In this document: positions 9,488 through 27,453 of the stretch, in pieces
Position numbering within the stretch: the first letter of the stretch is position 1
Layout of the letters: every line of letters starts with the position of its first letter
DNA from: Kordia jejudonensis
GTDB taxonomy: Bacteria > Bacteroidota > Bacteroidia > Flavobacteriales > Flavobacteriaceae
Assembly (NCBI RefSeq): GCF_001005315.1
Contig: NZ_LBMG01000019.1
Span: forward strand, 1 to 64,000
Direction of reading: 5' to 3'
Length of the DNA stretch: 64,000 bases
Translations under genes and position numbers: made by a program
Notes under the pieces: generated by a model
What the model was told of the DNA's origin: nothing
The model's database searches: none
What the model saw: the letters and a program-made list of their open reading frames with translations, nothing else

Positions 9488-9523
9488 TGTTGAAAAGTAA
9501 ATCATGCTTAGCTTTTTTAGAAA

Positions 9524-10060
9524 ATGATAACTAATTATAATGAATTTTATGATGGCGATTATGGAAATAAAAGACTGAAAAAAGAATTTATATTTTCATA
9601 CACTTTTGTCCCAGGACTTTATGACACGTTGTGTCGTGTTAATTTATTTGTAAAAAGTAACATGAGTTACCAGCTTTATCTATTTTTTTATGACACGCAA
9701 ATAGAAGAAGAATTCATGGAAACTCCTGAAGTAGCAAGAATTAAACATTATCAAGAAAGTAAATTACCATACATTGTAAGAACTAAACTATCTAGAATAT
9801 TAAAACAGAATTTTGTGCTAAAGAATTCTTATTTTAATTCCAATAATGTTTTTGGCATTCTAGATAGAACAGAAGTTAGTTGTAAAATAAACCACAAAAA
9901 TGATCAATTTTCAATTAATTTGAGCCCAGATATTTTGGACAAAAGTAAATTCAAAACGAAATCTGAAAAAGATTTTCTAGAAATGATTGAAATTATGGAA
10001 AAATGGTTAAAAGAATTGAAAGGCAATACGATGAAATTATATGAAGTAGATGATGATTAA
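9524..10060 (+). CDS. Hypothetical cytosolic protein
   Basis: 178 aa with no signal peptide or membrane segment. It is rich in Tyr, Phe, Asn and Lys. A run of beta-strand-like text in the first half (FIFSYTFVPGLYDTLCRVNL) is followed by a helical end (EKDFLEMIEIMEKWLKELK). It starts 36 bp after icmF on the same strand and may be read through from it, but its composition is plainer than that of icmF. Family not recognised. Confidence 0.5.
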   Translation: MITNYNEFYDGDYGNKRLKKEFIFSYTFVPGLYDTLCRVNLFVKSNMSYQLYLFFYDTQIEEEFMETPEVARIKHYQESKLPYIVRTKLSRILKQNFVLKNSYFNSNNVFGILDRTEVSCKINHKNDQFSINLSPDILDKSKFKTKSEKDFLEMIEIMEKWLKELKGNTMKLYEVDDD

Positions 10061-10250
10061 ATGAACTTAAAAAATATTCTCAACTTATATTTAAAGTTTA
10101 TGGACAATACCGAAGAAATACCTACTTTCATCTAACCAAAAAATAAATACTACCAAAAACGTACAAATCACGTCGGTCTATACATTTTTTGTTTTTGCTC
10201 CCTGAAAACACAGTACTTTCATGCTGTAAAACTAAATTCGGGGCAACTAC

Positions 10251-13200: not shown

Positions 13201-13316
13201 AATTACATCAAGACAATCAAAAGATTAATTTAGGAAATTATGAAGCAGGCATGTATTTCATGAGAATTTCATACAATAATAAGCAATTTACAAAGCGAAT
13301 TGTTTTACGAAAATAG
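10251..13316 (+). CDS. Repeat-rich T9SS-secreted surface protein
   Basis: 1021 aa. A signal peptide (about 1-19, ending YAQ) precedes six tandem units of about 123 aa, each opening N(D)xCANAE and containing WYxFTMPV-GN, GVNFADGF, a CFY segment and a closing DSFxIQA. The fold is probably a jelly-roll like bacterial pre-peptidase C-terminal domains, with paired Cys per unit. A bridging beta domain follows (about 720-930). The C-terminal 75 residues match a T9SS type A sorting domain (VSVFDITGRNIY...GMYFMRI...KRIVLRK). The sixth repeat is the most diverged. Likely a cell-surface or secreted adhesin; ligand unknown. Confidence 0.85.
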   Translation: MKTKLLLIVILFTTLNTYAQIPANNDCANAETISVTTATNTLVTFDNGMATQSLLSSCDTATTTYPDVWYEFTMPVNGNIRITGVNFADGFSLYTTCGGAEIACFYGDDFFYGLSSGTTYKLRAVSNASQAGFDSFRIQAFEAAANDECANAEVITDDITTQRTISFNNAAATESLVSSCDTSTTENYLDLWYQFTMPVSGNLRITGVNFADGFTLYDTCGSVPTEIDCFYGTNFTYNLAAGTYTLRVTSTASFAGSDSFVIQAIATAINDECATAEVITDDITTARTINFNNAAATESLVSSCDTTSDDYLDLWYEFTMPVNGNLRISGVNFADGFTLYDNCGSVPTEIDCFYDDNFTFGLTTGTYTLRVTSTDANAGNDSFVIQAFETVANDECANATVIMDDITTATTINFNNANATQSLESSCDTSTTEDYLDVWYQFTMPVSGNLQISGVNFADGFTLYDTCGSIPTEIDCFYGTNFTYNLPLGTYNLRVTSTAGFAGDDSFIIQAFETVANDECANAIIIADDIRTPITINYNNAGATESFQSSCETSNTDYLDIWYQFTMPVNGNITITGVNFADGFTLYDNCGSIPTEIDCFYSEKIITGLTAGTYTLRVVSTADFANADSFTITAYEAISNTNCASAEMAQVAAIGECSTQNVTAELRGSSLTNSVGSCQNNTQDWLDAWYTFEAPLTGNITLNSNTTLNNFAVYEACGGTEVACFTDDGVIPVVFGNTYYIQVSRLDSNFTAVTFCLEGAPIVATGTAGVCETMTAVDISTLQGNTNEWVPILDASGNIVAAIDANGNDLGIVTTTLFIDNADTRDFSGQPYSRREVSISASNAPSSNVSVRLYTLGDEVDDLIAADINLNTINDLEVMKVNGNTCTAGYISGGDFINASGVSYLDDYYIQFSTNSFSVFYPTSTNLDGTLSVSSNEADTSGITIVPTLTDGIVNIKANSSVPNVQVSVFDITGRNIYQQTFNQLHQDNQKINLGNYEAGMYFMRISYNNKQFTKRIVLRK
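10321..12530 (+). repeat. Six tandem ~370-bp coding repeats
   Basis: Unit starts, read at the NDECAN codons, fall near 10321, 10686, 11058, 11427, 11798 and 12168, giving spacings of 365-372 bp. Units 2-5 keep long identical blocks at DNA level (for example GTCAACTTTGCCGATGG-like text), pointing to recent duplication or gene conversion. Units 1 and 6 have diverged. Confidence 0.85.
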
Positions 13317-13330
13317 TTTTGTACTATTAA

Positions 13331-13376
13331 AAAAGTGTCACAAAAAGAATGGGTCTTTTCTTGGCGTGACACTTTT
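13331..13376 (+). terminator. Intrinsic terminator of the T9SS repeat protein gene
   Basis: AAAAGTGTCAC (13331-13341) pairs perfectly with GTGACACTTTT (13366-13376) across a 24-nt loop, 14 bp after the stop codon. Confidence 0.8.
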
Positions 13377-13514
13377 ATATAAATCATATTTTAACGTGAG
13401 TTCGATGAAAGTTTATTATAGTAAAATTTCTAACTCATATTTAGAAATATCAATAAACACTTAATTTTCATTTAATTATTTACTGTTTAGCTCATATGTT
13501 TTCTATTTTATTAA

Positions 13515-13765
13515 ATAAGAATTCGTGAATCTTCGATGTCTTTGCTCGCACAAAGAAAAGTAACAAAAGAAAGTGCGCTTTTAGTTCATAACATTTACAT
13601 TTTAAATCAAAGTATTCATGAATGCAAGGCATTTCCAGAGGTATTTTTAATTTTTCTTTTTGGAAAAAACTAAAACCGCATAGACTTTTCTAAATTTTTT
13701 AGTTCACAATCTTTTTATTTTAAATTATGGAGTTCATGAATCTTCGATTTCCAAGGATTCGAAAA
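13515..13765. repeat. Decayed intergenic repeats in a 635-bp gene-free stretch
   Basis: The interval 13317-13952 has no convincing gene. Within it a block at 13580-13637 (TTTAGTTCATAACATTTACA...) recurs imperfectly at 13698-13754, a period of 118 bp. The phrase TTCATGAATCTTCGAT at 13733 also recurs as TTCGTGAATCTTCGAT near 13522. A purine-rich segment (CAAAGAAAAGTAACAAAAGA) precedes the first block. This looks like remains of a dispersed element rather than a functional gene. Confidence 0.6.
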
Positions 13766-13864
13766 TTTTTAACGAAAAATCTCTGCTATACTGCGGAAAA
13801 GTTAAAAAATACTCTTGACTTTTATATCGAACTGACGTTATTTTAGTACTACGAATTTATAAAT

Positions 13865-13889
13865 GCGTTCATACGTTTGTTGTGAACGC
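13865..13889 (+). promoter_or_regulatory. Promoter -7 box enclosed in an inverted repeat (operator candidate)
   Basis: GCGTTCA (13865-13871) and TGAACGC (13883-13889) form a perfect 7-bp inverted repeat. Directly between the arms lies TACGTTTG (13872-13879), an exact TAnnTTTG -7 element. Transcription from it would enter the GG-leader peptide pair. A repressor bound to the arms would cover the promoter. Alternatively the arms and following T-run could act as a terminator of transcription arriving from upstream. Confidence 0.45.
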
Positions 13890-13952
13890 TATTTTTTTGA
13901 ATTTAATTTACAGCATCAAACAAAACGAAACAATACTTTAAATTCAATACTC

Positions 13953-14099
13953 ATGAAAAAACAAACATTAAAAAAACTGGGATTAAAAAAAGCACAAGTT
14001 GCTAAATTAGAAACGATAAAAGGAGGTTTGCATGCAGCACAAACTTGTATCGGATTGATTTGTGCAAACACATTATTTATTGTCTGCGCGGCTAGATAA
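13953..14099 (+). CDS. GG-leader ribosomal peptide precursor 1
   Basis: 48 aa from the ATG at 13953. The leader MKKQTLKKLGLKKAQVAKLE and the GG site (IKGG) match the Bacteroidetes natural-product precursor type, often annotated as class I lanthipeptide-like. The core is short and hydrophobic with two Cys in CIGLIC plus VCAAR near the end. The frame is open upstream to 13863, but that part crosses the promoter and has no leader-like sequence. No LanB/LanC-type enzyme, protease or ABC exporter is encoded nearby, so any maturation must act in trans. Confidence 0.75.
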   Translation: MKKQTLKKLGLKKAQVAKLETIKGGLHAAQTCIGLICANTLFIVCAAR

Positions 14100-14147
14100 T
14101 ACGATTTATCAAAACTTTCATTAACTAATTATTTAAAATATACAATC

Positions 14148-14330
14148 ATGAAAAAACAAACATTAAGAAAACTATCATTAAAGAAAGCTCAAATTTCTAA
14201 ATTAGAAAACATCAACGGAGGAATGGATAACGCGCACGACGACGCGATCAGATGGCCACAAACGTGTTTAGGAGACGCTTGTCCGTTTACAATGTTCTTC
14301 ATTTGTCCATCAAGAGAAGCAGCACAATAG
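14148..14330 (+). CDS. GG-leader ribosomal peptide precursor 2
   Basis: 60 aa. The leader MKKQTLRKLSLKKAQISKLE is almost identical to that of the precursor 48 bp upstream, and the cleavage-type site is INGG. The core (MDNAHDDAIRWPQTCLGDAC...) keeps paired Cys but otherwise differs, giving a conserved-leader, variable-core pair. They are probably one transcript, closed by the hairpin at 14343-14416. Confidence 0.75.
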   Translation: MKKQTLRKLSLKKAQISKLENINGGMDNAHDDAIRWPQTCLGDACPFTMFFICPSREAAQ

Positions 14331-14342
14331 AAAAACAAACGA

Positions 14343-14416
14343 AAGGTTGTCTAATATTATAATATGGCATTCTGAACTTGATTCGGTTTCTTATTATCAT
14401 AATGTTAGACATCCTT
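14343..14416 (+). terminator. Long-stem terminator after the peptide pair
   Basis: AAGGTTGTCTAATATTAT (14343-14360) pairs with ATAATGTTAGACATCCTT (14399-14416), 18 bp with two imperfect positions, followed by a T run. It lies between two convergent transcription units and may serve both. Confidence 0.65.
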
Positions 14417-14437
14417 TTTTTATGTAGTAATACAATT

Positions 14438-15055
14438 TTATTGCAAACGTTTAAATACGTAACCCGCTTTTTCAGCGCCCCAAACATATTGGTCATTGGC
14501 ATCAAAACCACGATCCCAACTTTCAATGACATCTGCTTTTATGGTAACTTCTGAAGTTGCATAACTGGCGCCACGCATGCTACTTTTACAATCTTTTTCA
14601 TTGGTACTTCCAACATAATTATCGCCTTTTTGCTTTAAAATAACGGCGCAACCTTCGCGTTCTTTTAACATGGAAACATCAAACTGATCAAAATATTCAG
14701 GTGTTTTCCACTTGCCAATCGCTTCTTCAGGATTTTCCAAGGTATACACTTTGCTGGAAAATGAACCATCTTCAAGCTTTTCTAATTGATAAATACGTTG
14801 ACGATACGGTTTTGTTTGAGTTTTATTGAGCGCTTGTTCTACATACAACCAATGTCCATCTCTAGAAGTCCAAATAGGGTACATGTGCAATGAAATATCA
14901 AAATAGCTTTCATCATTAGCGGCTTGTTCACTACTGTCAAACGAACCTGTCATCAGTGTTTGCAAAGCTGTTAATTCATTTTTGCTATCATCGGCACAAC
15001 TTGAAATGACAACGCATAAAAGTGCTATGTATACGAGAAAATGTAGTTTTTTCAT
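14438..15055 (-). CDS. CpeT/CpcT-family lipoprotein
   Basis: 205 aa. The lipoprotein signal ends CVVISSC (Cys20). The body follows the CpeT/CpcT pattern: PIWTSRDGHWLYVEQA, PYRQRIYQLE, REGCAVIL, C-x-SSMRGASYATSEV, SWDRGFDANDQYVWGAEKAGYVFKR. In cyanobacteria this family attaches bilins to phycobiliproteins; in heterotrophic Bacteroidetes no phycobiliprotein exists and the role is unknown. The fold is a lipocalin-like barrel. Envelope-anchored and monocistronic here. Confidence 0.85.
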   Translation of the reverse strand: MKKLHFLVYIALLCVVISSCADDSKNELTALQTLMTGSFDSSEQAANDESYFDISLHMYPIWTSRDGHWLYVEQALNKTQTKPYRQRIYQLEKLEDGSFSSKVYTLENPEEAIGKWKTPEYFDQFDVSMLKEREGCAVILKQKGDNYVGSTNEKDCKSSMRGASYATSEVTIKADVIESWDRGFDANDQYVWGAEKAGYVFKRLQ

Positions 15056-15222
15056 AAGTTGATTTTGGTGTTTGGTGTTTTTTAAATTGATAAGGTATGT
15101 AAAATCGAGTTGCTATAAATGTAGAAAATACATTTTGCTTTTCAAATTTAGTGCTTCAAAATCACTCAAATAGACGTTCTAAACTATTTTTTACTTCTAA
15201 ATACAACGGTTTTTTTAGAATG

Positions 15223-16332
15223 TTATGAAAAATTCTTCTCGATATAGCGTGACGGTGTATCATTCATAATCATCTTAAATGATTTGTTAAATGTCGATTT
15301 TGAATTAAAACCTGAATCCATCGCGATTGCCAAAATGGTTTGCTTTTTATGTTCGCCTTCTTCAATTTTTGTCAAAAATGCTTTAATTCTGTATTCATTT
15401 ACAAATTCATAAAACGTTTTTCCATACACAGAATTCAGCAACCACGACAAATTATTCGCAGAAGTATCTACTTTTTTAGCGAGAATTTTTAGGCTTAAAT
15501 CCGATCGTATATAAATCTGTTCTTCAACAATCAATTGTGTTAGTTTTTGTTTTATAACTTCAATTTCTTCTTTCCGCAAGCGATCTTTTCTAGGTGTTTT
15601 TTCTTTAGCAGGCAAGCGAATAATTTCGGGTTGTGTAAAACTAAAATATCCAACAATAAACAGTAAAACTGTCATACTTACCCAAATAAGTTTATAGGTA
15701 AAGTAGTATCCGTAATTGTGCGCTATATAGGTATTATAAATACTAATTGCCCAAAATAACGACATAAAAAACACACCAAAGGAAGTATATTGAATAAATG
15801 GTACAATTCTTTTTCTGTACGTCGATTTTTCTTCCGAACGTTTTATTTGAATTCCAATTCTGTATGATAATGTAGCGTAGATTCCCAATGAAATTGTACC
15901 CATAAGTTCCATTATGAAATAAATATAATAGAAGGTTCTGGAATACGACATTTTATCATATTCTTCTTTCGTATATGCTAAACTCCAACAGAAATATAAA
16001 AAAAGAATAATACTGGGAATGGAATGTTTCAGGTAGACACTATTTTTTAGAGTATCATCATAAACTAATGTTCTGAAGTACAAATATAATAAAGGACCAA
16101 ATAAATAAATAGAGCATTCGATTAACCAAATCAAACGCCAAATTCCTACGGAACTTTCATCATAAACAATCATTTTGGACGTAAACATAAACGTGGCCAA
16201 AACGATAATAATGGTTAAAATTTTATTCGCTTTCTTATTCTTTTTCGTAATAAATTGCAAAGAAAATGCTAGGAATATTCCTTGTGTAATGCCCGCAAAC
16301 AACAGCAGGTCTGATAGAGAAAATGACATCAA
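15223..16332 (-). CDS. Membrane-bound AraC-type transcriptional regulator
   Basis: 369 aa. About seven hydrophobic helices occupy residues 1-235, followed by a cytosolic AraC/XylS helix-turn-helix domain (about 255-369) with LSLKILAKKVDTSANNLS and ILAIAMDSGFNSKSTFNKSFK. This 7TM-plus-AraC layout is common in Flavobacteriaceae for sensors of extracellular or membrane signals. It is divergent from the Cys-rich peptide gene at 16615, with 282 bp between them, so control of the peptides is plausible but unproven. Confidence 0.85.
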   Translation of the reverse strand: MMSFSLSDLLLFAGITQGIFLAFSLQFITKKNKKANKILTIIIVLATFMFTSKMIVYDESSVGIWRLIWLIECSIYLFGPLLYLYFRTLVYDDTLKNSVYLKHSIPSIILFLYFCWSLAYTKEEYDKMSYSRTFYYIYFIMELMGTISLGIYATLSYRIGIQIKRSEEKSTYRKRIVPFIQYTSFGVFFMSLFWAISIYNTYIAHNYGYYFTYKLIWVSMTVLLFIVGYFSFTQPEIIRLPAKEKTPRKDRLRKEEIEVIKQKLTQLIVEEQIYIRSDLSLKILAKKVDTSANNLSWLLNSVYGKTFYEFVNEYRIKAFLTKIEEGEHKKQTILAIAMDSGFNSKSTFNKSFKMIMNDTPSRYIEKNFS

Positions 16333-16614
16333 TTTTTTTACAGTTAAAGATAATCAGTTTTTATTTTCAAACGTGCGGTTGGGTACATTAATACGAAGAT
16401 AATCAGAAAAAAAATCGTTTTTTGTTACGATATGTACCTATTTGTTGTAAGTGAAAACTTTATATTCTAATTTGTTATTTTTTCAAAATTTTACATTTTT
16501 AACATTTGAGGAAAAGTATATATGTGTAGAGTTGTACGGATTTGTATGCAAAAAGACGCTTTTGAGCTTTTCAATATATAGTTTTAAGATATTATAAATC
16601 AAAAATTATTTATT

Positions 16615-16908
16615 ATGAAAAAGAAAAGATTAAAGAGTTTGCAACTAAGTAAAAAAACTGTTTCAAAATTAGATCATCATGTTTCTATTAGAGGTGGTGG
16701 ACTTTCAATGGCTTGTGGTTATACACCTAATACACGATGTGAATCACAAGAAGAATGTGTTTCAAGAGATCCAGGATGTTTAGAGCCAACAGGAATAAGT
16801 GCTTGTATTCGTTGCCTTGAAATTTTTACGGAAGGTTGCTCTCCAAGTTTCCTAGGACAATGCGGTACAGGACTTGAATGTCCTTCCAACTTTGATAATT
16901 GTGATTAA
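16615..16908 (+). CDS. GG-leader peptide with ten-Cys core
   Basis: 97 aa. The leader MKKKRLKSLQLSKKTVSKLD is of the same KKxxLKxLxLxKKxxxKL class as the 14-kb peptides and ends at a GGG site (SIRGGG). The core of about 68 aa has ten Cys (for example RCESQEEC, CIRCLE, QCGTGLEC), an even number that suggests five disulfides and a knottin-like fold. It is divergent from the AraC-type regulator and closed by a strong terminator. Confidence 0.75.
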   Translation: MKKKRLKSLQLSKKTVSKLDHHVSIRGGGLSMACGYTPNTRCESQEECVSRDPGCLEPTGISACIRCLEIFTEGCSPSFLGQCGTGLECPSNFDNCD

Positions 16909-16926
16909 GGTTATGTAAATCTACTG

Positions 16927-16958
16927 AAGGAACGCTACACAGCGTTCCTTTTTTTTTG
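16927..16958 (+). terminator. Strong intrinsic terminator
   Basis: AAGGAACGCT (16927-16936) and AGCGTTCCTT (16941-16950) form a perfect 10-bp stem with a 4-nt ACAC loop, followed by an unbroken T run. It lies 18 bp after the ten-Cys peptide stop. Confidence 0.9.
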
Positions 16959-16994
16959 TTGTATATTATCCTATAATTTAAAACCTATAGAATC

Positions 16995-17150
16995 ATGAAA
17001 AAAAGACACATGAAAAGTTTAGCATTATGTAAAAGAACAATTTCTTCATTAAAGTTTACCGAAAATATCAAAGGAGGAAATACGTCAAAAACAAGTTGTT
17101 TGTGTGGACCAAGTGAATGCGAATGTCTTCAAGACGCAGATAGCATGTAA
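16995..17150 (+). CDS. Short GG-leader Cys-rich peptide
   Basis: 51 aa, read directly from the ATG at 16995 to TAA at 17150. The leader MKKRHMKSLALCKRTISSLK and site NIKGG fit the neighbouring precursor class. The core NTSKTSCLCGPSECECLQDA has four Cys as two CxC pairs, a spacing that could bind metal or form disulfides. An A-rich leader sequence precedes the ATG. It lies just past a terminator, so it needs its own promoter or read-through. Confidence 0.7.
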   Translation: MKKRHMKSLALCKRTISSLKFTENIKGGNTSKTSCLCGPSECECLQDADSM

Positions 17151-17247
17151 CACTTTTAAAGTTTCATAAAAAGAGTAACTATGAAGTTGGAAGGTGCAAC
17201 TGTTTAAAAAAGCGATCCTGAGACCGCTCAATTGTGCTCATACTACA

Positions 17248-17439
17248 TTAATCGTCACATACACCATTCATACAACAGCCAACACCATCAGCAGAATTTG
17301 GATTGTCATAACAAGGACAACCTTCACTTTCTGGAGTGCAGGTAAATACACCACACCTTCCAAAACTTCCTTTTACTGTAGATTGTTCTGATTTGTTTAA
17401 GGATTTAACTCCCTTAAGATTTAAAATTGATTTTAACAT
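17248..17439 (-). CDS. Cys-rich secreted peptide precursor, minus strand
   Basis: 63 aa. The leader MLKSILNLKGVKSLNKSEQS is a different Bacteroidetes precursor class (MLKxIxxLxGVKxLxKxEQ) with a VKG processing-like site. The core has seven Cys, in RCGVFTC, GCPCYDN, GCCMNGVC. It faces the plus-strand 51-aa peptide gene. A TACGGT...ACCGTA pair lies 46-71 bp upstream of its ATG. Confidence 0.75.
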   Translation of the reverse strand: MLKSILNLKGVKSLNKSEQSTVKGSFGRCGVFTCTPESEGCPCYDNPNSADGVGCCMNGVCDD

Positions 17440-17483
17440 GATCTATAATTTTGGTTAATAAGTGAAGAAGTTACGAGGAATAC

Positions 17484-17510
17484 TTACGGTTGAAGTAAGG
17501 TTATACCGTA
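17484..17510. promoter_or_regulatory. TTACGGT...ACCGTA inverted repeat (site b)
   Basis: TTACGGT (17484-17490) and ACCGTA (17505-17510) form an inverted repeat with a 14-nt spacer, 45 bp upstream of the Cys-rich peptide ATG. Same motif class as sites a, c and d. Confidence 0.35.
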
Positions 17511-17537
17511 TTTTTTTTCTAAAAATCTTATGATCAA

Positions 17538-18257
17538 TTATTTGAAAGCTTTTCTAGTGCGCTTTTTAAGTTTTGCAATTCTGTCTTTATAATACAATTT
17601 TAATTCGTCAACAAACGTATACGGATTTTTGTAGGTCATCAAAACAGTATAGGTTGATTTGCGTTTAATTTGGTGCAATTGTTCTTTGATCGTTTCAATC
17701 TCAGCTAGTAGATGTACTTGTGAATTTGCTTGAAGCTTCACATTGGCATTTCCTGCTAAAGAACGCAAAGACGTATCACTAAAAATATGTGCATGATAGG
17801 CTTGCAAAGCTTTCAAATCTCCTTCTTTATAAATTTGAATCAACTTCGTGGTTACTTCTGTAGCTAATTCGGTTTCTGTAGCTTGCAGTGAAAATTTGTC
17901 AGGATGCACATGAAACATTGCTTCTCTGTACAAGCGTTTCTTTTCTTGCGAATCTTCTTTTATAGCAGTTTTAGGTGTCGCTTTTTCAACAACATTCAAA
18001 CCTGTAGGCGCTACATAATTCTTTCCGCGTTGTTTTTGTAATTGTCGTTGCTGCTTCTTGGCACGTTTCAATTCCTTGTAAATTACAGTCAACTCCTGTA
18101 CTTCTAAAATTTCATCACCCAAATGTCGATACAAAAGTGTTTCAAACTCGGTAACTTTTTGTGTCACCGCAGCAAATTCTTTCTGCAACTGTTCCAATTG
18201 AATCTTTAAATCAATGGAATCAAGATTGGTTGTTATGGGAAGTTTTTCTTGTGACAT
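17538..18257 (-). CDS. J-domain-like protein with coiled coil
   Basis: 239 aa from the ATG at 18257; the frame is open a little further but only with a TTG start. Residues about 15-75 are a charged coiled coil (QLEQLQKEFAAV..., ELKRAKKQQRQLQKQ). A partial J-domain follows with KKRLYREAMFHVHPDKF, the HPD signature at 118-120 and a preceding basic helix II. The C-terminal half (about 140-239) is helical and basic. There is no Gly/Phe linker or zinc domain, so it is a J-like co-chaperone of unknown client, not DnaJ. Confidence 0.65.
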   Translation of the reverse strand: MSQEKLPITTNLDSIDLKIQLEQLQKEFAAVTQKVTEFETLLYRHLGDEILEVQELTVIYKELKRAKKQQRQLQKQRGKNYVAPTGLNVVEKATPKTAIKEDSQEKKRLYREAMFHVHPDKFSLQATETELATEVTTKLIQIYKEGDLKALQAYHAHIFSDTSLRSLAGNANVKLQANSQVHLLAEIETIKEQLHQIKRKSTYTVLMTYKNPYTFVDELKLYYKDRIAKLKKRTRKAFK

Positions 18258-19658: not shown

Positions 19659-21263
19659 ATGAAATCAGTACGATTAGTAAATCTAGCTTTCTTACTTCCT
19701 TTCGTTACATATGCGCAACAAGAATCATCATCAGTTGATGCGCAGATTAATGAAAACTTTAAAAATGCAACAAGTTGGTTTACCGATGCCATTTTTGCAG
19801 AAATACCCGTTACCAATGAAGTAGGAATTCCGTGGGTTTTAATCGTGCTGATTATTGGTGCAAGTTACTTTACAGGATATTTTAAATTTATCAATATTAG
19901 AGGATTTTTCACCGCGATCAAAGTTGTCAAAGGAACGTATGATGATTTAGAAGAAAACCACAAAGTGGAAGTTTCTAGCTCTGTTCATTTGACAGAAAAT
20001 AACGATCAGCCTGATACCATCCGAGTAGAAGGACAAGAAGGCGAAGTGTCACACTTTCAGGCACTCACAGCTGCATTGTCCGCAACCGTAGGATTGGGAA
20101 ATATTGCAGGAGTTGCCATTGCATTGTCCATTGGTGGACCTGGTGCCACTTTTTGGATGATTGTCGTTGGATTTTTAGGAATGGCGTCTAAATTTGTAGA
20201 ATGTACACTTGGCGTGAAATACAGAGAAGTAGATGAAAACGGTGTTGTTTTTGGTGGTCCAATGTATTACTTGCGCAAAGGTTTGCACGAAAAAGGCTTG
20301 AAACGACTCGGAAAAGTATTGGCGGTTGTCTTTGCAATTATGTGTATTGGCGGTTCGTTTGGTGGCGGAAACATGTTTCAGGTAAATCAGGCATTTCAAT
20401 TATTTCAATATGTAACTGGCGGCGAAGAAAGCTTTCTATATGGAAAAGGTTGGCTCTTTGGAATCATTATGGCAATCTGTGTGGGAATCGTCATTATTGG
20501 CGGCATCAAGAAAATTGCAAAAGTTACAGATAAAATCGTGCCAGTCATGGTTGCTGTATATGTACTTGCTATTTTTATCATTTTAGGCATCAACTATCAA
20601 AGTATTCCAGCGGCTTTTGGCGAAATATTTTATGGAGCATTCAGTTATGAAGGTGTTGCAGGCGGATTTATTGGCGTCATGATTCAAGGATTCAAACGCG
20701 CCGCATTTTCCAACGAAGCAGGAATTGGCTCGTCATCTATTGCGCATTCGGCTGTAAAAACTAAGTATGCAGCGAGTGAAGGTTTGGTGGCGTTATTAGA
20801 ACCGTTTATTGATACTGTAGTCGTTTGTACCATGACAGCGTTGGTATTAATCATTACAGGACAACTCAATGTAGGAACTGAGGTTTCTTTTGAACAAGGC
20901 GCCATTTTAACCTCAAATGCTTTAGAAAGTGGAATATCTTGGTTTCCATATGTACTAACCGTTGCGGTCATACTATTTGCCTTTTCTTCTATGATTTCAT
21001 GGTCGTATTACGGACATCAAGCGTGGTCATATTTATTTGGAAGAAGCAAAAAAGCAGAATACATTTACAAAACCATCTTTTGTATGTTTGTTGTCATTGG
21101 CGCGGCGGCAAGTTTACAAGCGGTCGTTGATTTTGCCGATGCAATGGTATTTTCTATGTTAGTGCCTAATATGATCGGATTGTTCATCTTAGCCCCAAAA
21201 GTAAAAGAAGAACTAAAACGGTATAAAGAAGCGATTCGTACTAAAAAAGCGACTACTGAATAG
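19659..21263 (+). CDS. Sodium:alanine symporter family (AGCS) transporter
   Basis: 534 aa. The first 20 residues look like a cleavable signal (FVTYAQQES), followed by a soluble stretch and about ten membrane helices. AGCS signatures are ATVGLGNIAGVAIALSIGGPGATFWM, GGPMYYLRKGL, and FKRAAFSNEAGIGSSSIAHSAVKT. It should import a small neutral amino acid (alanine or glycine) with sodium at the inner membrane. Its 3' end overlaps the convergent TlpA gene by 11 bp. It is slightly longer than typical at the N-terminus, as often in Bacteroidetes. Confidence 0.9.
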   Translation: MKSVRLVNLAFLLPFVTYAQQESSSVDAQINENFKNATSWFTDAIFAEIPVTNEVGIPWVLIVLIIGASYFTGYFKFINIRGFFTAIKVVKGTYDDLEENHKVEVSSSVHLTENNDQPDTIRVEGQEGEVSHFQALTAALSATVGLGNIAGVAIALSIGGPGATFWMIVVGFLGMASKFVECTLGVKYREVDENGVVFGGPMYYLRKGLHEKGLKRLGKVLAVVFAIMCIGGSFGGGNMFQVNQAFQLFQYVTGGEESFLYGKGWLFGIIMAICVGIVIIGGIKKIAKVTDKIVPVMVAVYVLAIFIILGINYQSIPAAFGEIFYGAFSYEGVAGGFIGVMIQGFKRAAFSNEAGIGSSSIAHSAVKTKYAASEGLVALLEPFIDTVVVCTMTALVLIITGQLNVGTEVSFEQGAILTSNALESGISWFPYVLTVAVILFAFSSMISWSYYGHQAWSYLFGRSKKAEYIYKTIFCMFVVIGAAASLQAVVDFADAMVFSMLVPNMIGLFILAPKVKEELKRYKEAIRTKKATTE

Positions 21264-22923
21264 GTGTTGCAACCTGTGTTTTATCAATAATCTTTTCGAA
21301 GGCGATTTCATCTGATGGACTTGGTGCGCTGTTAATCATTACGGTATTATTTTTATCAAATACTACATATCTTGGAATTTGATATACATTTAATGCTTTT
21401 GCCAAAGCTGATTTTCTGCCTTTTACTAACAAATATGAATTTCTAAAATGCAAATGATTTTTTAATTCTCTGCCTTTTTTTAACCATTTTTCACGATCGG
21501 AATCAATAGAAAGATATATCCACTCTACATTATTTTCAACGGAAAGTCGATCTTTAAACGGTTTACTCTCTTGAATCTGTTGCACACATGGTGAACACCA
21601 ACTTGCCCAAAAATCCACTACTTTTACACGTTTCTTGGAACGATTAAAAATATCTTGCAACGTTAACGTATCTCCTAAATGATTGATTATTTTGGCATTC
21701 AATGCAGATTCAGATAACTTAAAATCATAGGTTTGAATATCTTCTTTAATGTCTTCCATTTTATCACGAAATGACTTTTTATGACCTACAGTTTCTAAAT
21801 ATTCATCAATCACAGCAATCATGAAGTTTTTATTTTCAGAACCATATGCGAAACCTTTATTATAATAATCCCAAATCATGCGTCCAATACCATAATCTCT
21901 AATCGTTCCCTTAAAATTTTTCTCAATAAATACTTTTTCAGCAATCAAACGTTCTTTAGAAAAAGGAGTTGCATCCGATTGCACAAAATGATGTCGAATA
22001 AAAGCATTTAAGCTATTTTTAAAGAAGAAGGTATTTCGCATGGCATCAAAATCTTGAAAATCGGCTACTGTTAAATTTTCTAGATAATCATTGACATCAA
22101 ATAATCTTTTTTCGTTGAACTTTTCATTTTGGATTAAAAAAGGCAACACATTGTAATCATTCACATGTATTTGTTCATCTTCATATTTTTGTATTCTAGG
22201 ACTCACAAGATTATCATAATACTCAAACTTTAGCATTTTTTCATAAATACTCGTTATTCTTTGTGAAAGATTATATGTGCTTGCATATGTAGTTAAGAAT
22301 GTTTTTTTCTTTTCATAGATTGCTGTTATATCTTTTTTGTATAAAAATAAATCTCCTTGATAAGGAGATTTAGAATATTTTGGTGTATTTGCATCTAGTG
22401 CTAACGAGAAATTATTTTGTGCGGCATTTTTTCCTGTAAAAACAAGTTTTTCATTCTTTACTTCAAATTCAATGGTATCATTTGGAGCAATGTACATATT
22501 AGCAAAATACATCTTTTTATTGCCGCTCGGGAGAAATTCCATTAACATAGGAGCTTCTACATTAGTAAGTGTTAGTATAGCAGTATCATCAATAATCGTC
22601 TTTTCAATATCTTGATGCGGTTTCCCAAATAAATATGTATTGTTCATAATATTAGGACGCTTAAAAATGCCAGGATCATCAGATTTACCGAGAATAACAA
22701 TCCTGTTTTGTGGCTCTTTTTCTGAATTGAAATTCATCTTTTCTCCAAATTCAGTTTGGTTTTCCTCTTCTTTGGGAACAGATCGTTCAAAAGTTTCTGA
22801 AGCGTTAGAAATGTTGTGGAACATTGAAGAACTGACATCAATGGTATCCGACATATATACTTTTGATACAAAGACGTATCCAGCTGTTAATAAAACAGCG
22901 TAAATAATTAACTTTTTTGACAT
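21253..22923 (-). CDS. TlpA-family thioredoxin-like protein
   Basis: 556 aa. The N-terminus is a membrane anchor (LIIYAVLLTAGYVFVSKVYM). The middle (about 70-420) has DUF4369-like beta text and helices. The C-terminal TlpA/ResA thioredoxin domain carries WASWCSPC (C443 and C446) and a cis-Pro in QIPRYVVF. It faces the periplasm and handles thiol-disulfide exchange. It lies downstream of the VKOR-fusion and Cys-peptide genes on the same strand, separated by a terminator and its own upstream motif, so it probably belongs to the same physiological unit. Confidence 0.85.
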   Translation of the reverse strand: MSKKLIIYAVLLTAGYVFVSKVYMSDTIDVSSSMFHNISNASETFERSVPKEEENQTEFGEKMNFNSEKEPQNRIVILGKSDDPGIFKRPNIMNNTYLFGKPHQDIEKTIIDDTAILTLTNVEAPMLMEFLPSGNKKMYFANMYIAPNDTIEFEVKNEKLVFTGKNAAQNNFSLALDANTPKYSKSPYQGDLFLYKKDITAIYEKKKTFLTTYASTYNLSQRITSIYEKMLKFEYYDNLVSPRIQKYEDEQIHVNDYNVLPFLIQNEKFNEKRLFDVNDYLENLTVADFQDFDAMRNTFFFKNSLNAFIRHHFVQSDATPFSKERLIAEKVFIEKNFKGTIRDYGIGRMIWDYYNKGFAYGSENKNFMIAVIDEYLETVGHKKSFRDKMEDIKEDIQTYDFKLSESALNAKIINHLGDTLTLQDIFNRSKKRVKVVDFWASWCSPCVQQIQESKPFKDRLSVENNVEWIYLSIDSDREKWLKKGRELKNHLHFRNSYLLVKGRKSALAKALNVYQIPRYVVFDKNNTVMINSAPSPSDEIAFEKIIDKTQVATPIQ

Positions 22924-22980
22924 GAGATGTAATGTAGTTAAAAAGCGTGACTAAATGTAAGATATTATTTTCAATACTTA

Positions 22981-22996
22981 TTACGGATAACCGTAA
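22981..22996. promoter_or_regulatory. TTACGGATAACCGTAA palindrome (site c)
   Basis: A perfect 6-bp inverted repeat TTACGG/CCGTAA with ATAA between, 58 bp upstream of the TlpA ATG. The minus strand has TACATTTA, a near -7 element, at 22952-22959, which places the palindrome near -33. Confidence 0.4.
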
Positions 22997-23025
22997 TTAT
23001 AAATATTTGATTATCAAAATATTAA

Positions 23026-23052
23026 AAAAGGCAGTTTGCTAAGCTACCTTTT
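23026..23052 (-). terminator. Terminator after the Cys-rich peptide gene
   Basis: On the minus strand AAAAGGTAG pairs with CTGCCTTTT (one U-G pair) around a 9-nt loop, followed by T-rich sequence. It ends the VKOR-fusion/peptide unit 22 bp after the peptide stop. Confidence 0.65.
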
Positions 23053-23073
23053 CTTTCAAATCAGGATTAAAAA

Positions 23074-23286
23074 TTAGTTACCACCACCGGAGCAAATTTT
23101 TGCACCTCCTTTTGAACCTTCACAAGCTTTATCCATTTCGCTGCAGTCGTTAACAGCCACTTCATCACCATTATTACATAAAACATAGGCTCCATCTCCT
23201 TGAATAAATGCGCCATTTCCAGCAATAATAGTTTTCATTTCATCTCTACTTAATTGGTTTTTAGAGTTTTTAAGGTTGATTTTCAT
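23074..23286 (-). CDS. Cys-rich peptide precursor next to VKOR fusion
   Basis: 70 aa. The leader is MKINLKNSKNQLSRDEMKTI, ending IIAGNG, a Gly-rich processing-like site. The core has four Cys (CNNGDE, DCSEMDKACEG, KICSGGGN) and ends in a Gly run. It starts 12 bp after the stop of the pseudo-C39/VKOR/thioredoxin gene and is followed by a terminator, so they are one operon. The even Cys number suits disulfide folding by that enzyme (inference). Confidence 0.75.
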   Translation of the reverse strand: MKINLKNSKNQLSRDEMKTIIAGNGAFIQGDGAYVLCNNGDEVAVNDCSEMDKACEGSKGGAKICSGGGN

Positions 23287-23298
23287 AATAAAATATAA

Positions 23299-24918
23299 TT
23301 AAATAATTGTGTCTACTCTATTAATAGCTTTTCGACTTTCCGCTAGTTGAATTGTATGATCGTGTATGATTTCTTCAATAAAATAGTTGAGATCTGTGAT
23401 AGAATACATTTCAGGAAACTTGTATCCATTGATTATTAATAAAGGAGTAAATGTCAATTGATGATCGACAAAATAGGAGCGATGCTTCTGTAACATTCGG
23501 TCAACTTCGAACGAATCAAACGTGTGCGAATGCTTTTGAAGCCAATGCGCTAAATTCTTTTCTTCATACCATGCGTCCAAAGCTTTCATAAATGCTTTCA
23601 CTCCATATGTTTGATATGTATACACAAGCTGCTGTACAAGTTGTGACGCTTCATTACGATTTTTATGGATGTCAAAATTGAAAAATAGTCGAATACAAAC
23701 ATCATTTTCATGTCGTTCCAATATATTCTTCAACATGAAATACGGAGCTTCACAAAATCCGCAAAAAGGGTTTGTGACAAACTCCAAGGTAAGTTTTGCT
23801 TTTTCGTTTCCAAAAATTAAAGCGGTTTGAGGTACTACAGTAATTGGGTTGGAAATTAGGGTGTTTTTAAAAAGTAAATAATTCTTTTTAAACGTGATCG
23901 CTTTACGTTCAGCAGTTTCTAAACGATTAATTTTAACATATGAATCTTTTATAAAATACCATAAAAGTACGATGATTCCTAAGCTGAAAACAGAAACAGT
24001 ATACTCAAAAAAAGTAATCTCAGAAGTATTATTTTGATGAAAAACGAATACGTATAGTAATTCTCCAAGAATAATTCCTCCAATAGAAATACAGATAGTA
24101 CACCATTTTTTAGCAATGAATTTTTGATAATATAAAGAAAGTATCAAAATTGGAACAGCCGCAAGAAGCATGATACTTTGCAACTGAAAAAAGATGTCAA
24201 AATTGGTTGTGAATCCAAAAATGAAAAAAAGCACAATTTGAAAACTAAAAAAAGTAATGCTTACATCACTAAAATTGATAAAGTCTAAAAATTTCCAATG
24301 TGTGGAATGGACGATTTCGGAACAATTTTCAGATGTTGCGCCGTGACAAAAAGAGTTGAAAATTGTATGCTCAATCTTAAAAAGATGTTTTAGAGCAATT
24401 ACGGAAAGAAAAAATCCGATAGCAGGAAATAGTAGAAATAAAAATTGTTCAGTAATAAGCAAATGTTGCTTTACTAGTGCTAAAAAGGATAAAAAACAGA
24501 CAAGAGTTACTGCATGAATAAATGTAAAAGAACTTAGTTTTTTCTGAAGTGCTGTATTTTCGGCAACTAAAAAAACAATGCCTTTCCATTTCTTTACAAA
24601 AGCTTCTTTTGAAAAAATAGTCTTTTTAGAATTTTGATAGACGATAAATTCATGATTTGTATCATGTGTTTCCACATAGCTTAATGTATCTTCTTTTGTA
24701 TCTTTGAGTTTCGTAATGAAATTAGTTGGTAACGAATCAATTTCACTTGCATGCACATGCAAAGCAGCATTTGCAACCTGAAACAAATTCAATGTATCGC
24801 TAAGAGCTGCTAAAGAAGGAAAATCGGGATGCGACTCAAGCTGGAAAGCAAACTCTTTTTGATCTAAATGAATATTCATTTTCTTCAAATACAAAAACAA
24901 TAATCTATAAATAGTCAT
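23299..24918 (-). CDS. Pseudo-C39 / VKOR / thioredoxin fusion membrane protein
   Basis: 539 aa. Residues 1-120 resemble a C39 peptidase domain (HPDFPSLAALSDTLNLFQV, EFIVYQNSKK, WKGIVFLVAE) but the CG catalytic Cys is absent. Residues about 130-325 form a vitamin K epoxide reductase domain with membrane helices; all four VKOR Cys are present (loop pair C191 and C199, active CTIC C273-C276). Residues about 340-539 are a DsbA/thioredoxin-like domain with CGFC (C386-C389). There is no ABC ATPase part. The domain order suggests a membrane oxidase that makes disulfides via quinone and may recognise GG-leader peptides. It heads an operon with a Cys-rich peptide. Confidence 0.85.
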   Translation of the reverse strand: MTIYRLLFLYLKKMNIHLDQKEFAFQLESHPDFPSLAALSDTLNLFQVANAALHVHASEIDSLPTNFITKLKDTKEDTLSYVETHDTNHEFIVYQNSKKTIFSKEAFVKKWKGIVFLVAENTALQKKLSSFTFIHAVTLVCFLSFLALVKQHLLITEQFLFLLFPAIGFFLSVIALKHLFKIEHTIFNSFCHGATSENCSEIVHSTHWKFLDFINFSDVSITFFSFQIVLFFIFGFTTNFDIFFQLQSIMLLAAVPILILSLYYQKFIAKKWCTICISIGGIILGELLYVFVFHQNNTSEITFFEYTVSVFSLGIIVLLWYFIKDSYVKINRLETAERKAITFKKNYLLFKNTLISNPITVVPQTALIFGNEKAKLTLEFVTNPFCGFCEAPYFMLKNILERHENDVCIRLFFNFDIHKNRNEASQLVQQLVYTYQTYGVKAFMKALDAWYEEKNLAHWLQKHSHTFDSFEVDRMLQKHRSYFVDHQLTFTPLLIINGYKFPEMYSITDLNYFIEEIIHDHTIQLAESRKAINRVDTII

Positions 24919-24969
24919 TAAATTCTTTTAAAAATTTAAGCTAATATATTTATTGATTTGTAAGAAAAA

Positions 24970-25023
24970 TTACGGTTTTTCTCAATAAATGAAAAAATAC
25001 TTATAAATAAGGATAAAACCGTA
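24970..25023. promoter_or_regulatory. TTACGGTTTT...AAAACCGTA inverted repeat (site d)
   Basis: TTACGGTTTT (24970-24979) and AAAACCGTA (25015-25023) form a wide inverted repeat 52 bp upstream of the VKOR-fusion ATG. Same motif class as sites a-c. Confidence 0.35.
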
Positions 25024-25159
25024 GCTATTTTTAATGAGTTTTAGGTGTTGATTTTCAGTGTTCTATAATTTTTAGAATCCATAAATTTGTAATTTTAGAA
25101 AATAAATGCATCTTTTTTAATCGTTTCACGTCTACTGTGTGAACTTTAAAATTTGTAAG

Positions 25160-25267
25160 ATGATGGAAAATCATAAAAACTGTACGTGCCACTGCACGAG
25201 TTGTAAAAATGGACAATGCAATCAATGTACTTGCGAAAACTGTACATGTGTAGATTGTAATTGTTAA
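25160..25267 (+). CDS. 35-aa metallothionein-like Cys-rich protein
   Basis: Read directly: ATG at 25160 (a second ATG follows at once), stop TAA at 25265-25267. Of 35 residues 11 are Cys, at 8, 10, 12, 15, 20, 23, 25, 28, 30, 33 and 35, in repeated CxC and CxxC spacing (CTCHCTSC, CTCENCTC, CVDCNC), plus two His. There is no leader or signal peptide, so it should stay in the cytosol. The pattern is that of a metal-binding mini-protein. It lies 129 bp upstream of a SigZ-like sigma factor whose tail is also Cys-rich, on the same strand. A regulatory leader peptide is an alternative. Confidence 0.65.
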   Translation: MMENHKNCTCHCTSCKNGQCNQCTCENCTCVDCNC

Positions 25268-25395: not shown

Positions 25396-25944
25396 ATGAA
25401 ACGTATGACCACAACAGAAATTTGGGAAACCTATGCAAAAGATGTACAACGCTTGATTATGAATAAAGTAAAAGATGTTCAAATTACAGATGATTTGGTA
25501 CAAGAAGTTTTCATAAAAGTGCATACAAAATTAGAAACTGTGCAAGACGAACGCAAAGTGAAATCTTGGTTGCTAAGTGTGAGCCGAAATACAGTACTAG
25601 ATTATTTTAGGAAATCAAATACGGAAGTTCCGTTAGAAAAAGAAGAAACAATTGTAGGAGAAGAAACGTATGCACATTCTGAAAAAGACTGTTTGCCAGG
25701 CATCATTAAAAACCTACCCAAAAAATATAGAAATCCATTATTACTTTCAGACATCAAAGGTTTGAAACAAGCCGAAATTGCAGCTCAACTCAACTTGCCG
25801 CTTGCCACTGTAAAATCGCAAATACAACGCGGAAGAAAACTCATTGTGCAAGGTTATATGGATTGTTGCGATTATAAACTTAACGAGAAAGGTTTCCTTA
25901 CGGGAGAAGTTAAAGACAAAAAACAATGTAAAGTGTGCAATTAG
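25396..25944 (+). CDS. sigZ: SigZ-like RNA polymerase sigma factor with Cys-rich tail
   Basis: 182 aa, sigma-70 family ECF type. Region 2 includes DDLVQEVFIKVHTKL and VKSWLLSVSRNTVLDYFRK; region 4 includes NLPKKYRNPLLLSDIKGLKQAEIAAQLNLPLATVKSQIQRGRK. After region 4 comes a tail of about 29 residues, GYMDCCDY...KQCKVCN, with Cys at 157, 158, 178 and 181. This CC...CxxC set could bind a metal or form a redox switch. A second in-frame ATG at 25405 is an alternative start. No anti-sigma gene is adjacent. Confidence 0.85.
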   Translation: MKRMTTTEIWETYAKDVQRLIMNKVKDVQITDDLVQEVFIKVHTKLETVQDERKVKSWLLSVSRNTVLDYFRKSNTEVPLEKEETIVGEETYAHSEKDCLPGIIKNLPKKYRNPLLLSDIKGLKQAEIAAQLNLPLATVKSQIQRGRKLIVQGYMDCCDYKLNEKGFLTGEVKDKKQCKVCN

Positions 25945-26097: not shown

Positions 26098-27453
26098 ATG
26101 AACTATATTGACAAGCTTGTCTTCAAATCAACGCATGTTTCCATACTTGCTATTTTCAGAATCATCTTTGGAATGTTTATGACATATCAAATGATTTATT
26201 ACTATGAAATCGATTATACGTTTCAATTTATATATGGTCCAGAAGTGTTATTCCCGTATCCAGGATTAGAATTTTTAAAACCTTTCTCATTAGGTCTTTT
26301 AAAAGCAATTCATGCAGGACTCTTACTATCTGCAATACTAATTACCGTTGGATTTTTGTACAGATATGCAATGGTGTTTTTCTTTCTAGGATTCTCGTAT
26401 TTTTCATTTATTGACAAAACATTGTACAATAATCATATCTATTTGATTGCTTTAATTGCTTTGGTAATGATATTCATCAATGCAGATTATAAATACAGTC
26501 TTCGTAGCAAATTTTCAAAAAAAGCATTGCCAAAATTTGTACCTGCTTGGCAACAAAATATCCTTATTTTTCTAATTTCTATCGTATACTTTTTTGGAGG
26601 AATCGCAAAACTATCTCCAAATTGGTTAGACAGTAATCTTATAAGTTATACAATTGATCAAGCACAAAGTAGTTTGCTTACCAACCTATTTTCTAAAGAA
26701 ACCTTGATTACGTTAATCAAATACGGCGGTTTACTATTCGATCTAAGCATAGCATTCATTTTACTAAACAAAAGAACCCGATTATTTGGTGTTATCTTGG
26801 TAGTTATCTTTAGCTACACAAACAATTCTATCCTTTTCAATGATATTGGAATCTTTCCATTCTTCATGATTTGTGCTACAATTTTATTCTTCGAGAGCGC
26901 AAAAGTTGGAAACTATATAGATAATATTTTTTCAAGTGCTTCAGCAAAGAAAACAACGGGTAGCGCAACACAAAATGAAACACCAAAATTTAAAACACTA
27001 ACACTTGCTTGCTTATTTATTTTTGTAACATTTCAACTCTTATTTCCTTTGCGACATATCTTCATGACTTCTAATCCTGAATGGACAGGCGTTGCACAAA
27101 GGTTTTCTTGGAGAATGAAAATGCAATCCAGAAATGTAACACAGTTCAAAATGTTTTTAACAGACCGAAAAACGGCTAAAACGTATGGTTTAGATGGCAC
27201 TTCATTTGTGACTAAAAATCAATTTATGCACATGGTAGAAGATCCATACACCTTTGTACATTTAGCAAAATATATAAGTGATAAGCTATATGTAGAACGC
27301 GGTTTGGTAGATCCTATCATAAAAGCAGAATTGATGGTGGAATTTAACGGAATGCCAACGCAATACATGCTTGATTCTTCAATTGATCTCACAAAAGTAG
27401 ATGAAAGTCACTTCGCTGATAACGCTTGGATTCCTGATTTTAATGGTTACTAA
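26098..27453 (+). CDS. HTTM / vitamin K-dependent gamma-carboxylase-like membrane protein
   Basis: 451 aa with about eight hydrophobic helices and an HTTM domain (residues about 8-300), then a soluble tail. FIDKTLYNNHIYL matches the region of human gamma-glutamyl carboxylase holding the CO2-site His (H113 here), and VYFFGGIAKLSPNWL matches the catalytic-base Lys region (K171 here). It therefore keeps both key residues known from the mammalian enzyme. Bacterial members have unproven substrates. It lies 1.2 kb from the VKOR fusion, which in animals recycles vitamin K for this enzyme, but on the opposite strand. Confidence 0.8.
   Translation: MNYIDKLVFKSTHVSILAIFRIIFGMFMTYQMIYYYEIDYTFQFIYGPEVLFPYPGLEFLKPFSLGLLKAIHAGLLLSAILITVGFLYRYAMVFFFLGFSYFSFIDKTLYNNHIYLIALIALVMIFINADYKYSLRSKFSKKALPKFVPAWQQNILIFLISIVYFFGGIAKLSPNWLDSNLISYTIDQAQSSLLTNLFSKETLITLIKYGGLLFDLSIAFILLNKRTRLFGVILVVIFSYTNNSILFNDIGIFPFFMICATILFFESAKVGNYIDNIFSSASAKKTTGSATQNETPKFKTLTLACLFIFVTFQLLFPLRHIFMTSNPEWTGVAQRFSWRMKMQSRNVTQFKMFLTDRKTAKTYGLDGTSFVTKNQFMHMVEDPYTFVHLAKYISDKLYVERGLVDPIIKAELMVEFNGMPTQYMLDSSIDLTKVDESHFADNAWIPDFNGY

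Follow-up and report, generated by a model that had tools for sequence, protein, structure and literature searches.

We found in Kordia jejudonensis, and in many of its relatives, a gene for a predicted three-part membrane enzyme in which a C39-like domain without its catalytic residues is fused to a VKOR domain and a DsbA-like thioredoxin. The enzyme appears to grip the leader of small cysteine-rich peptides and to form their disulfide bonds, probably on the cytoplasmic side before export, although leader binding, oxidation and topology are inferred from sequence and from a structural model. The window analyzed is a stretch of 64,000 nucleotides (NZ_LBMG01000019.1, positions 1 to 64,000; assembly GCF_001005315.1), in which the fusion gene is followed, after 12 bp, by a gene for a leader peptide with four core Cys and then by a TlpA-like gene (Table 1).

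Table 1. Coordinates of the fusion, its predicted domains and neighboring genes in the window
Position	Strand	Feature	Size or residues	Remarks
23299..24918	(-)	C39-like / VKOR / DsbA-like thioredoxin fusion	539 aa	
24544..24918	(-)	C39-like domain	1-125	Starts after the place of the catalytic Cys; His and Asp not conserved
24463..24537	(-)	Extra TM helix, TM0	128-152	Outside the VKOR match; proposed to invert the VKOR (inferred)
24019..24459	(-)	VKOR four-helix core	154-300	C191/C199 and C273/C276
23854..24012	(-)	TM5 and long helical linker	303-355	
23356..23844	(-)	DsbA/ScsC-like thioredoxin domain	359-521	CGFC 386-389; conserved T491-P492
23074..23286	(-)	Precursor peptide	70 aa	Four core Cys
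23218..23286	(-)	Leader	23 aa	L-12, E-8, M-7, I-4; predicted cut after AG (cut site inferred)
21253..22923	(-)	TlpA-like thioredoxin	556 aa	CSPC; N-terminal hydrophobic stretch; probably periplasmic (location inferred)
17248..17439	(-)	Second, lone precursor		Same leader motif (ends GS); 7 core Cys; perhaps served in trans
26098..27453		Gamma-carboxylase-like gene		HTTM + VKGC domain; 1.2 kb away

Domains of the fusion and the adjacent peptide

We searched the fusion against Pfam, and matches were obtained to Peptidase_C39 (residues 12-121, E 5.5e-4, 20.2 bits, under the 22-bit cut-off, but 22.9 bits and over it in the genome search), VKOR (PF07884; residues 161-285, E 8.5e-6, 26.4 bits against a cut-off of 27.5, but 30.7 bits and over it in another search) and Thioredoxin_4 (residues 365-515, E 1e-5, 26.3 bits, cut-off 23.2). 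No ABC domain was found in the chain. An AlphaFold2 model (pLDDT 84.5) compared with the PDB matched all three folds, with Z 14.7 for the C39 fold, Z 13.0 for VKOR and Z 15.5 for the ScsC/DsbA fold, the thioredoxin matching ScsC and BdbD structures. A Z of 13 alone could reflect a common helical arrangement, but the cysteines and the Pfam match add to the VKOR assignment. C191, C199, C273, C276, C386 and C389 are invariant in 27 of 27 aligned sequences. The similarity of residues 1-125 to C39 is weak in Pfam, but was also given by a profile-profile comparison (98.1%, E 4.8e-13). However, the column of the catalytic Cys of 33 PCAT exporters is a gap in 53 of 53 fusions, the Asp column is D in only 8 of 53, and His is not among the four commonest residues in its column, so the domain is C39-like and not a peptidase. 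By sequence alone, the PDB gave one weak thioredoxin-type hit (E 2.1) for the fusion and none for the second fusion of the genome, and no NCBIfam family matched the fusion at E up to 1.

The preliminary description had proposed this domain order, the four Cys of the VKOR and an adjacent Cys-rich peptide of the Gly-Gly type, and these are confirmed with one correction. The window peptide has no Gly-Gly at its leader end. Its leader instead ends in AG (..LSRDEMKTIIAG, followed by NGAF..), with L-12, E-8, M-7 and I-4 in the register of double-glycine leaders, and the peptide of a sister genome ends likewise (LSRSEMKSILAG). No Pfam or NCBIfam family named the peptide over cut-off, and no terminator was found between the peptide and the TlpA-like gene. 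TlpA-like neighbors were present in 11 of 53 loci.

Recurrent association with Cys-rich leader peptides

The association between fusion and peptide recurs well above controls. A leader peptide with 3 or more core Cys lay within 1.2 kb downstream in 37 of 51 family loci and in 57 of 65 named loci, compared to 10 of 275 and 9 of 101 control ORFs. The two sets share 6 loci and are not independent; the named set is the best 80 of 138 from a scan built on one subclade's motifs, and 12 of the 80 gave no ORF under our motif rule. In addition, the peptide rule was written after some of the peptides had been seen. Of the 14 family loci that failed it, 7 have a peptide by eye (two with leaders ending in AG, two further away and three upstream), whereas 7 have none nearby with 3 or more Cys, four of these being a branch beside DUF6734 genes. 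A 190-aa fragment was excluded from all counts of fusions, one of two fusions in one locus was not included, and a further fragment was not retrieved. The association was also seen in 4 of 4 plasmid loci examined, of 8 records matched, with Cys counts made by eye for the plasmid peptides and for four loci (L242, L248, L255 and L259 in our numbering).

To ask whether PCAT operons alone could account for the association, we applied one rule to fusion loci and to exporter loci without the fusion. In the former, 99 of 119 leader-like small ORFs had 3 or more Cys, as opposed to 2 of 23 in the latter, and PCAT operons were thus rejected as the sole reason. This control used 20 of 52 PCAT matches, chosen away from known fusion loci; in one of the 20 the PCAT was not recognized by our script, and some small ORFs in both sets are probably chance. 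Among 219 peptides taken from 3 kb downstream and 1.5 kb upstream of fusions and chosen for 3 or more core Cys, the number of core Cys is even in 194. Of the 219 peptides, 199 have L-12 and 207 have I/V-4, positions that a C39 protease needs (PMC6363468). However, 174 of 219 have Q at -7, where the LahT protease wanted a hydrophobic residue (PMC6363468). The residue at -7 follows the tree of the fusion, with 10 changes against a shuffled mean of 16.2 (0 of 200 as low), and the window branch is all M (4 of 4, support 100/100). In this test 40 of 53 rows were labeled, two of them by hand (including the window) and one with a false peptide, and co-inheritance alone could give the agreement.

The preliminary description had suggested that an inactive C39 domain recognizes the leader while VKOR and thioredoxin oxidize the core, without an ABC exporter in the same protein. 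This interpretation is supported by the C39 similarity and by the adjacent peptides of homologues, although binding and oxidation remain inference. Two refinements can be made. An exporter is usually near, since a PCAT is present in 32 of 53 fusion loci, though not in the window locus. The genome carries two fusions, a single PCAT on another contig and about 26 such precursors (for 5 of the 31 leader matches no peptide was read), and no DsbB and no other VKOR were found in it, so that service in trans is likely. Furthermore, the charge pattern would place the chemistry in the cytoplasm, which had not been considered.

Predicted topology and proposed mechanism

An extra TM helix and inverted loop charges predict that the active sites face the cytoplasm, where the leader is. 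The density of K+R was higher beside the active sites in 53 of 53 fusions (781 against 57 residues). Loop E exceeded loops D+F in 42 of 53 fusions, with 8 ties and 3 opposite, but in 0 of 22 ordinary VKORs, and the named fusions gave 60 of 68, with 6 ties and 2 opposite. The loops on the far side are short, so few charges are expected there, and the orientation of the 22 ordinary VKORs is assumed; 8 of 30 VKOR loci had been left out of this set (five with a wrong reading frame, two C39 fusions and one odd sequence). Moreover, hydropathy showed exactly six TM peaks in 44 of 53 fusions, not all, and of four fusions outside the family the charge test favored inversion in one and tied in three.

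The explanation that we favor, with moderate confidence, is that the fusion is a leader-guided, quinone-coupled disulfide synthase for small secreted peptides. In this model, the dead C39 domain binds the amphipathic leader in the cytoplasm, the tethered DsbA-like domain oxidizes pairs of core cysteines through CGFC, and its electrons pass to the loop pair C191/C199, then to C273/C276 and then to membrane quinone. Because TM0 would turn the VKOR upside down, these steps would take place on the cytoplasmic side, before a PCAT exporter cuts the leader and exports the folded or partly folded peptide. The cytoplasm is reducing, so the peptide must be shielded or exported at once. In this genome the exporter and most substrates are encoded elsewhere, and maturation and export would work in trans. 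The TlpA-like neighbor probably acts on the exported peptide in the periplasm. More tentatively, one or two such naturally inverted enzymes may serve the scattered library of precursors as a new class of peptide maturase, with the two fusions of this genome split by leader type (M-7 for the window copy, Q-7 for the other).

Alternative explanations appear less likely. The same enzyme could act on the same substrates in the usual VKOR orientation, with the active sites, thioredoxin and C39-like domain all in the periplasm, on peptides after export and perhaps on leaders that escape cutting. The solved VKORs that the model matches (Synechococcus, human and pufferfish) are ordinarily of this orientation, and the TlpA-like partners look periplasmic by their N-termini. 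However, the positive-inside counts point the other way, a 125-residue N-terminal domain without signal peptide would have to be moved across the membrane, and PCAT normally cuts leaders in the cytoplasm; we consider this reading unlikely. It is still less likely that the C39-like domain docks the oxidase onto the exporter, or mimics its protease, instead of binding leaders. Its homology to the exporter's own domain and the frequent nearby PCAT are consistent with docking, but 21 of 53 loci, including both in this genome, have no intact PCAT in the span retrieved, yet 16 of these 21 have a leader peptide with 3 or more Cys as counted by eye, and the leader type follows the tree of the fusion. 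A general disulfide enzyme with a chance peptide neighbor would fit the absence of another VKOR or DsbB from the genome search, but is very unlikely given the recurrence against controls. A vitamin K cycle with the neighboring gamma-carboxylase-like gene (Pfam HTTM E 1.3e-57, VKGC lumenal domain E 1.4e-26) was rejected, as no relative of that gene was found in the 133 fusion stretches searched (flanks of 6-8 kb at most) and the domain occurs in 230 of 299 family genomes but the fusion in 40 of 299.

Comparison with known systems and significance

We compared the locus with related systems. Bacteroidetocin loci (class IIf bacteriocins of Bacteroidales, PMC6671954) encode a double-glycine leader peptide with four Cys, a thiol oxidoreductase whose deletion attenuates the toxin and a PCAT exporter, and a gel shift on reduction suggests disulfides. 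The window locus likewise has a leader peptide with four Cys and a thiol oxidoreductase gene, but no adjacent PCAT. The bacteroidetocin oxidoreductase is described as a separate protein, the leaders there are 15-16 aa, the words VKOR, C39 and thioredoxin do not occur in the main text, and leader guidance of the oxidation is not described in the parts we consulted. C39-like domains of HlyB-type exporters (PMC6363468) also have a C39 fold without catalytic Cys that recruits substrate, and a HlyB/D structure matched the model at Z 12.6, but in the present protein the domain is fused to a redox enzyme and not to an ABC transporter. Synechococcus VKOR (4nv2, Z 12.6) shares the four-helix core, four Cys and fused thioredoxin, whereas the fusion has in addition an N-terminal C39-like domain, TM0 and inverted loop charges. 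Inverted VKOR/DsbB used for cytoplasmic disulfides (PMC4727284 and PMC5471842, which cite Hatahet and Ruddock 2013) have an active site facing the cytoplasm, but are general tools for which no leader-recognition domain or dedicated substrates are mentioned there. No paper was found in searches for VKOR with bacteriocin and disulfide or for vitamin K epoxide reductase with bacteriocin and gene cluster, and those retrieved for C39 with VKOR were unrelated by their titles, although only open-licence literature (PMC10352776, PMC11208910 and PMC4460558 among the papers consulted) was searched and absence in print is not shown. A VKOR phylogeny (PMC4555120) has no occurrence of C39, peptidase, Bacteroidetes or fused.

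Disulfide bonds in secreted bacterial peptides are generally held to form outside the cytoplasm. A dedicated, leader-steered, quinone-coupled oxidase on the cytoplasmic side would be a new route to disulfide-rich peptides and could serve as a tool to fold such peptides in the E. coli cytoplasm. The fusion gives a genome-mining handle for many unstudied peptides, including those on gut Parabacteroides plasmids, and such an enzyme could explain how Bacteroidota without DsbB make disulfide-rich peptides.

Predicted architecture and redox centers of the fusion

Three genes follow each other on the minus strand, encoding a fusion protein, a small peptide 12 bp later, and a TlpA-like protein. Pfam recognized Peptidase_C39 (E 5.5e-4, below its cut-off), VKOR, and Thioredoxin_4 in the fusion. 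We built an AlphaFold2 model from 64 sequences (pLDDT 84.5, pTM 0.66) and compared it with known structures using Foldseek. Among the top chains, residues 1-125 matched PCAT1 (8vp5_B, Z 14.7, rmsd 2.8 over 124), the leader-bound C39 protease 6mpz_B (Z 13.8), and HlyB/D (7sgr_A, Z 12.6). Residues 154-300 matched VKORs (6wv8, Z 13.0; Synechococcus 4nv2, Z 12.6), and residues 359-521 matched ScsC-like thioredoxins (4gxz_D, Z 15.5).

The C39 part is dead. A profile of 53 fusion N-termini compared with 33 PCAT C39 domains gave a probability of 98.1% and an E of 4.8e-13 over 136 columns. However, the Cys, His, and Asp conserved in 33 of 33 PCATs are lost in the fusions. The Cys column is a gap in 53 of 53 fusions, the Asp column holds D in 8 of 53, and His is not among the four commonest residues of its column. 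The catalytic role of such a triad rests on the work on LahT, in which it is formed by Cys27, His101, and Asp117 (PMC6363468). In the same study, leader residues -4, -7, and -12 lie in a groove about 20 Å from the active site, so binding could outlive catalysis.

The redox parts, in contrast, look intact. C191, C199, C273, C276, C386, C389, Q265, K270, and P492 are invariant in 27 of 27 aligned sequences. The genome search found two VKORs, both of which are such fusions, and no DsbB, while the E. coli control was detected. It also found one true PCAT, which lies on another contig (locus L090) beside HlyD, Cys-rich leader peptides of another type, and what look by eye like split lanthipeptide dehydratase genes. 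A vitamin K-dependent gamma-carboxylase homologue (HTTM + VKGC lumenal domain) lies 1.2 kb from the VKOR fusion. The domain is present in 230 of 299 family genomes and the fusion in 40 of 299, so many flavobacterial carboxylases must do without such a VKOR.

Table. Features discussed in the window and in related loci
Location	Coordinates	Strand	Feature
Window	24918-23299	-	C39-like/VKOR/thioredoxin fusion, 539 aa
Window	23286-23074	-	Precursor peptide, 70 aa
Window	22923-21253	-	TlpA-like protein, 556 aa
Window	17248-17439	-	Lone precursor, 63 aa, same leader motif ending GS, 7 core Cys
Window	25139-25267	+	42-aa ORF with 12 Cys, metallothionein-like by eye, no Pfam match; just upstream of the ECF sigma factor gene
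Window	25396-25944		ECF sigma factor gene
Window	26098-27453	+	Gamma-carboxylase homologue (HTTM + VKGC lumenal domain)
L090 (locus with the genome's only PCAT)	8257-17958		PCAT, HlyD, and neighboring genes
L260 (plasmid locus, Parabacteroides distasonis)	8577-14721		Fusion with glycosyltransferase genes and a LanC-family gene
L262 (plasmid locus, Spirosoma)	5959-12486		Fusion with glycosyltransferase genes

Association with cysteine-rich leader peptides

In the family of the window genome, 40 of 299 genomes have a match to the fusion at E up to 1e-10. We read 54 loci including the window, 53 of them with a full-length fusion. A leader peptide with at least 3 core Cys starts within 1.2 kb downstream in 37 of 51 loci (median 84 bp), compared to 10 of 275 other ORFs of the same loci. 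In a second set from named genomes (Tenacibaculum, Aquimarina, Winogradskyella, Lacinutrix, Bizionia, and others), which shares 6 loci with the first, the numbers were 57 of 65 (median 110 bp) and 9 of 101, respectively. PCAT is present in 32 of 53 loci, HlyD in 33, and a TlpA-like gene in 11. The link is with cysteine-rich cores and not with exporters. By one rule, 99 of 119 leader-like small ORFs in the 53 fusion loci have 3 or more Cys (64 of 74 in the 32 loci with PCAT), as opposed to 2 of 23 in 20 PCAT loci where tblastn found no fusion. Furthermore, across 219 non-redundant peptides, chosen for 3 or more core Cys, the number of core Cys is even in 194, as expected of paired cysteines (binomial p 7e-34 if the peptides were independent, which relatives are not).

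Fusions were also found on plasmids of Parabacteroides distasonis, Emticicia, Spirosoma, and Aureibacter, where they are annotated as vitamin K epoxide reductase family proteins. Of 8 records matched, 4 were opened, and 4 of 4 have 6-Cys leader peptides (Cys counted by eye) and a PCAT. The glycosyltransferase genes in the Parabacteroides distasonis and Spirosoma loci suggest that the peptides may carry sugars as well as disulfides. However, one fusion branch (loci L070, L073, L074, and L075) has no credible leader peptide or PCAT nearby. Here the fusion is followed by a DUF6734 gene and a gene of 207-208 aa (no Pfam match in the one tested), perhaps indicating other substrates.

Among the 219 peptides, the leader carries L-12 in 199, E-8 in 136, Q-7 in 174 (L in 30, M in 6), and I or V at -4 in 207. 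The window peptide fits this pattern with AG as the cut site (L-12, E-8, M-7, and I-4), and its sister-genome counterpart (locus L034) keeps the AG and four Cys. The window fusion and its three nearest relatives form one branch (support 100/100) whose peptides all have M-7, whereas the other labelled rows have mostly Q or L. Over the tree, the label needs 10 changes compared to 16.2 in shuffles, with 0 of 200 as low, although co-inheritance can explain this too. A leader profile found 31 matches in the genome at E up to 10, 24 of them below 0.005. Of these, 26 peptides could be read, 22 by script (12 with 4 core Cys, 4 with 6, and the rest with 2, 3, 5, or 7) and 4 by eye, and by eye only the window peptide has M-7. 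We hence propose a split between the two fusions and that most of these about 26 scattered Cys-rich peptides are served in trans. One of the loci concerned (L095) also holds neighbors with a different leader type (MKKRNLKxLKLNK).

Predicted orientation and proposed mechanism

The model shows six TM helices, namely the four of VKOR, TM5 leading to the thioredoxin, and an extra TM0 before them. Hydropathy gave exactly six peaks in 44 of 53 fusions. Both end domains would therefore lie on the side of the VKOR cysteines. In the 53 fusions, the mean K+R per loop is 2.75, 4.25, 1.87, and 3.57 beside the active sites and 0.25, 0.08, and 0.26 on the other side, and the density is higher on the active-site side in 53 of 53. 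Using one script for the loop charges, 22 of 22 ordinary Bacteroidota VKORs had E < D+F, whereas the fusions had E > D+F in 42 of 53, with 8 ties and 3 opposite. The corresponding numbers were 60, 6, and 2 for 68 named fusions, and 1, 3, and 0 for four plasmid-borne fusions. By the positive-inside rule, the active sites are thus predicted to be cytoplasmic, suggesting that the added helix inverts the enzyme and puts it where the leader is. Inverted VKOR or DsbB is used as a catalyst in the E. coli cytoplasm (PMC4727284, PMC5471842).

The nearest studied system is that of the bacteroidetocins, which has a thiol oxidoreductase gene whose deletion attenuates the toxin (PMC6671954). Among the open-licence papers searched, no title joined leader recognition to a quinone-coupled oxidase. 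The association of the fusion with the peptides, whose function is unknown (class II bacteriocin-like by leader and cysteines), is near certain, whereas leader guidance and orientation are likely but unproven. In the mechanism we propose, a leader-bound precursor would be oxidized in the cytoplasm by the tethered thioredoxin, the VKOR would pass the electrons to quinone, and a PCAT would then cut and export the peptide.
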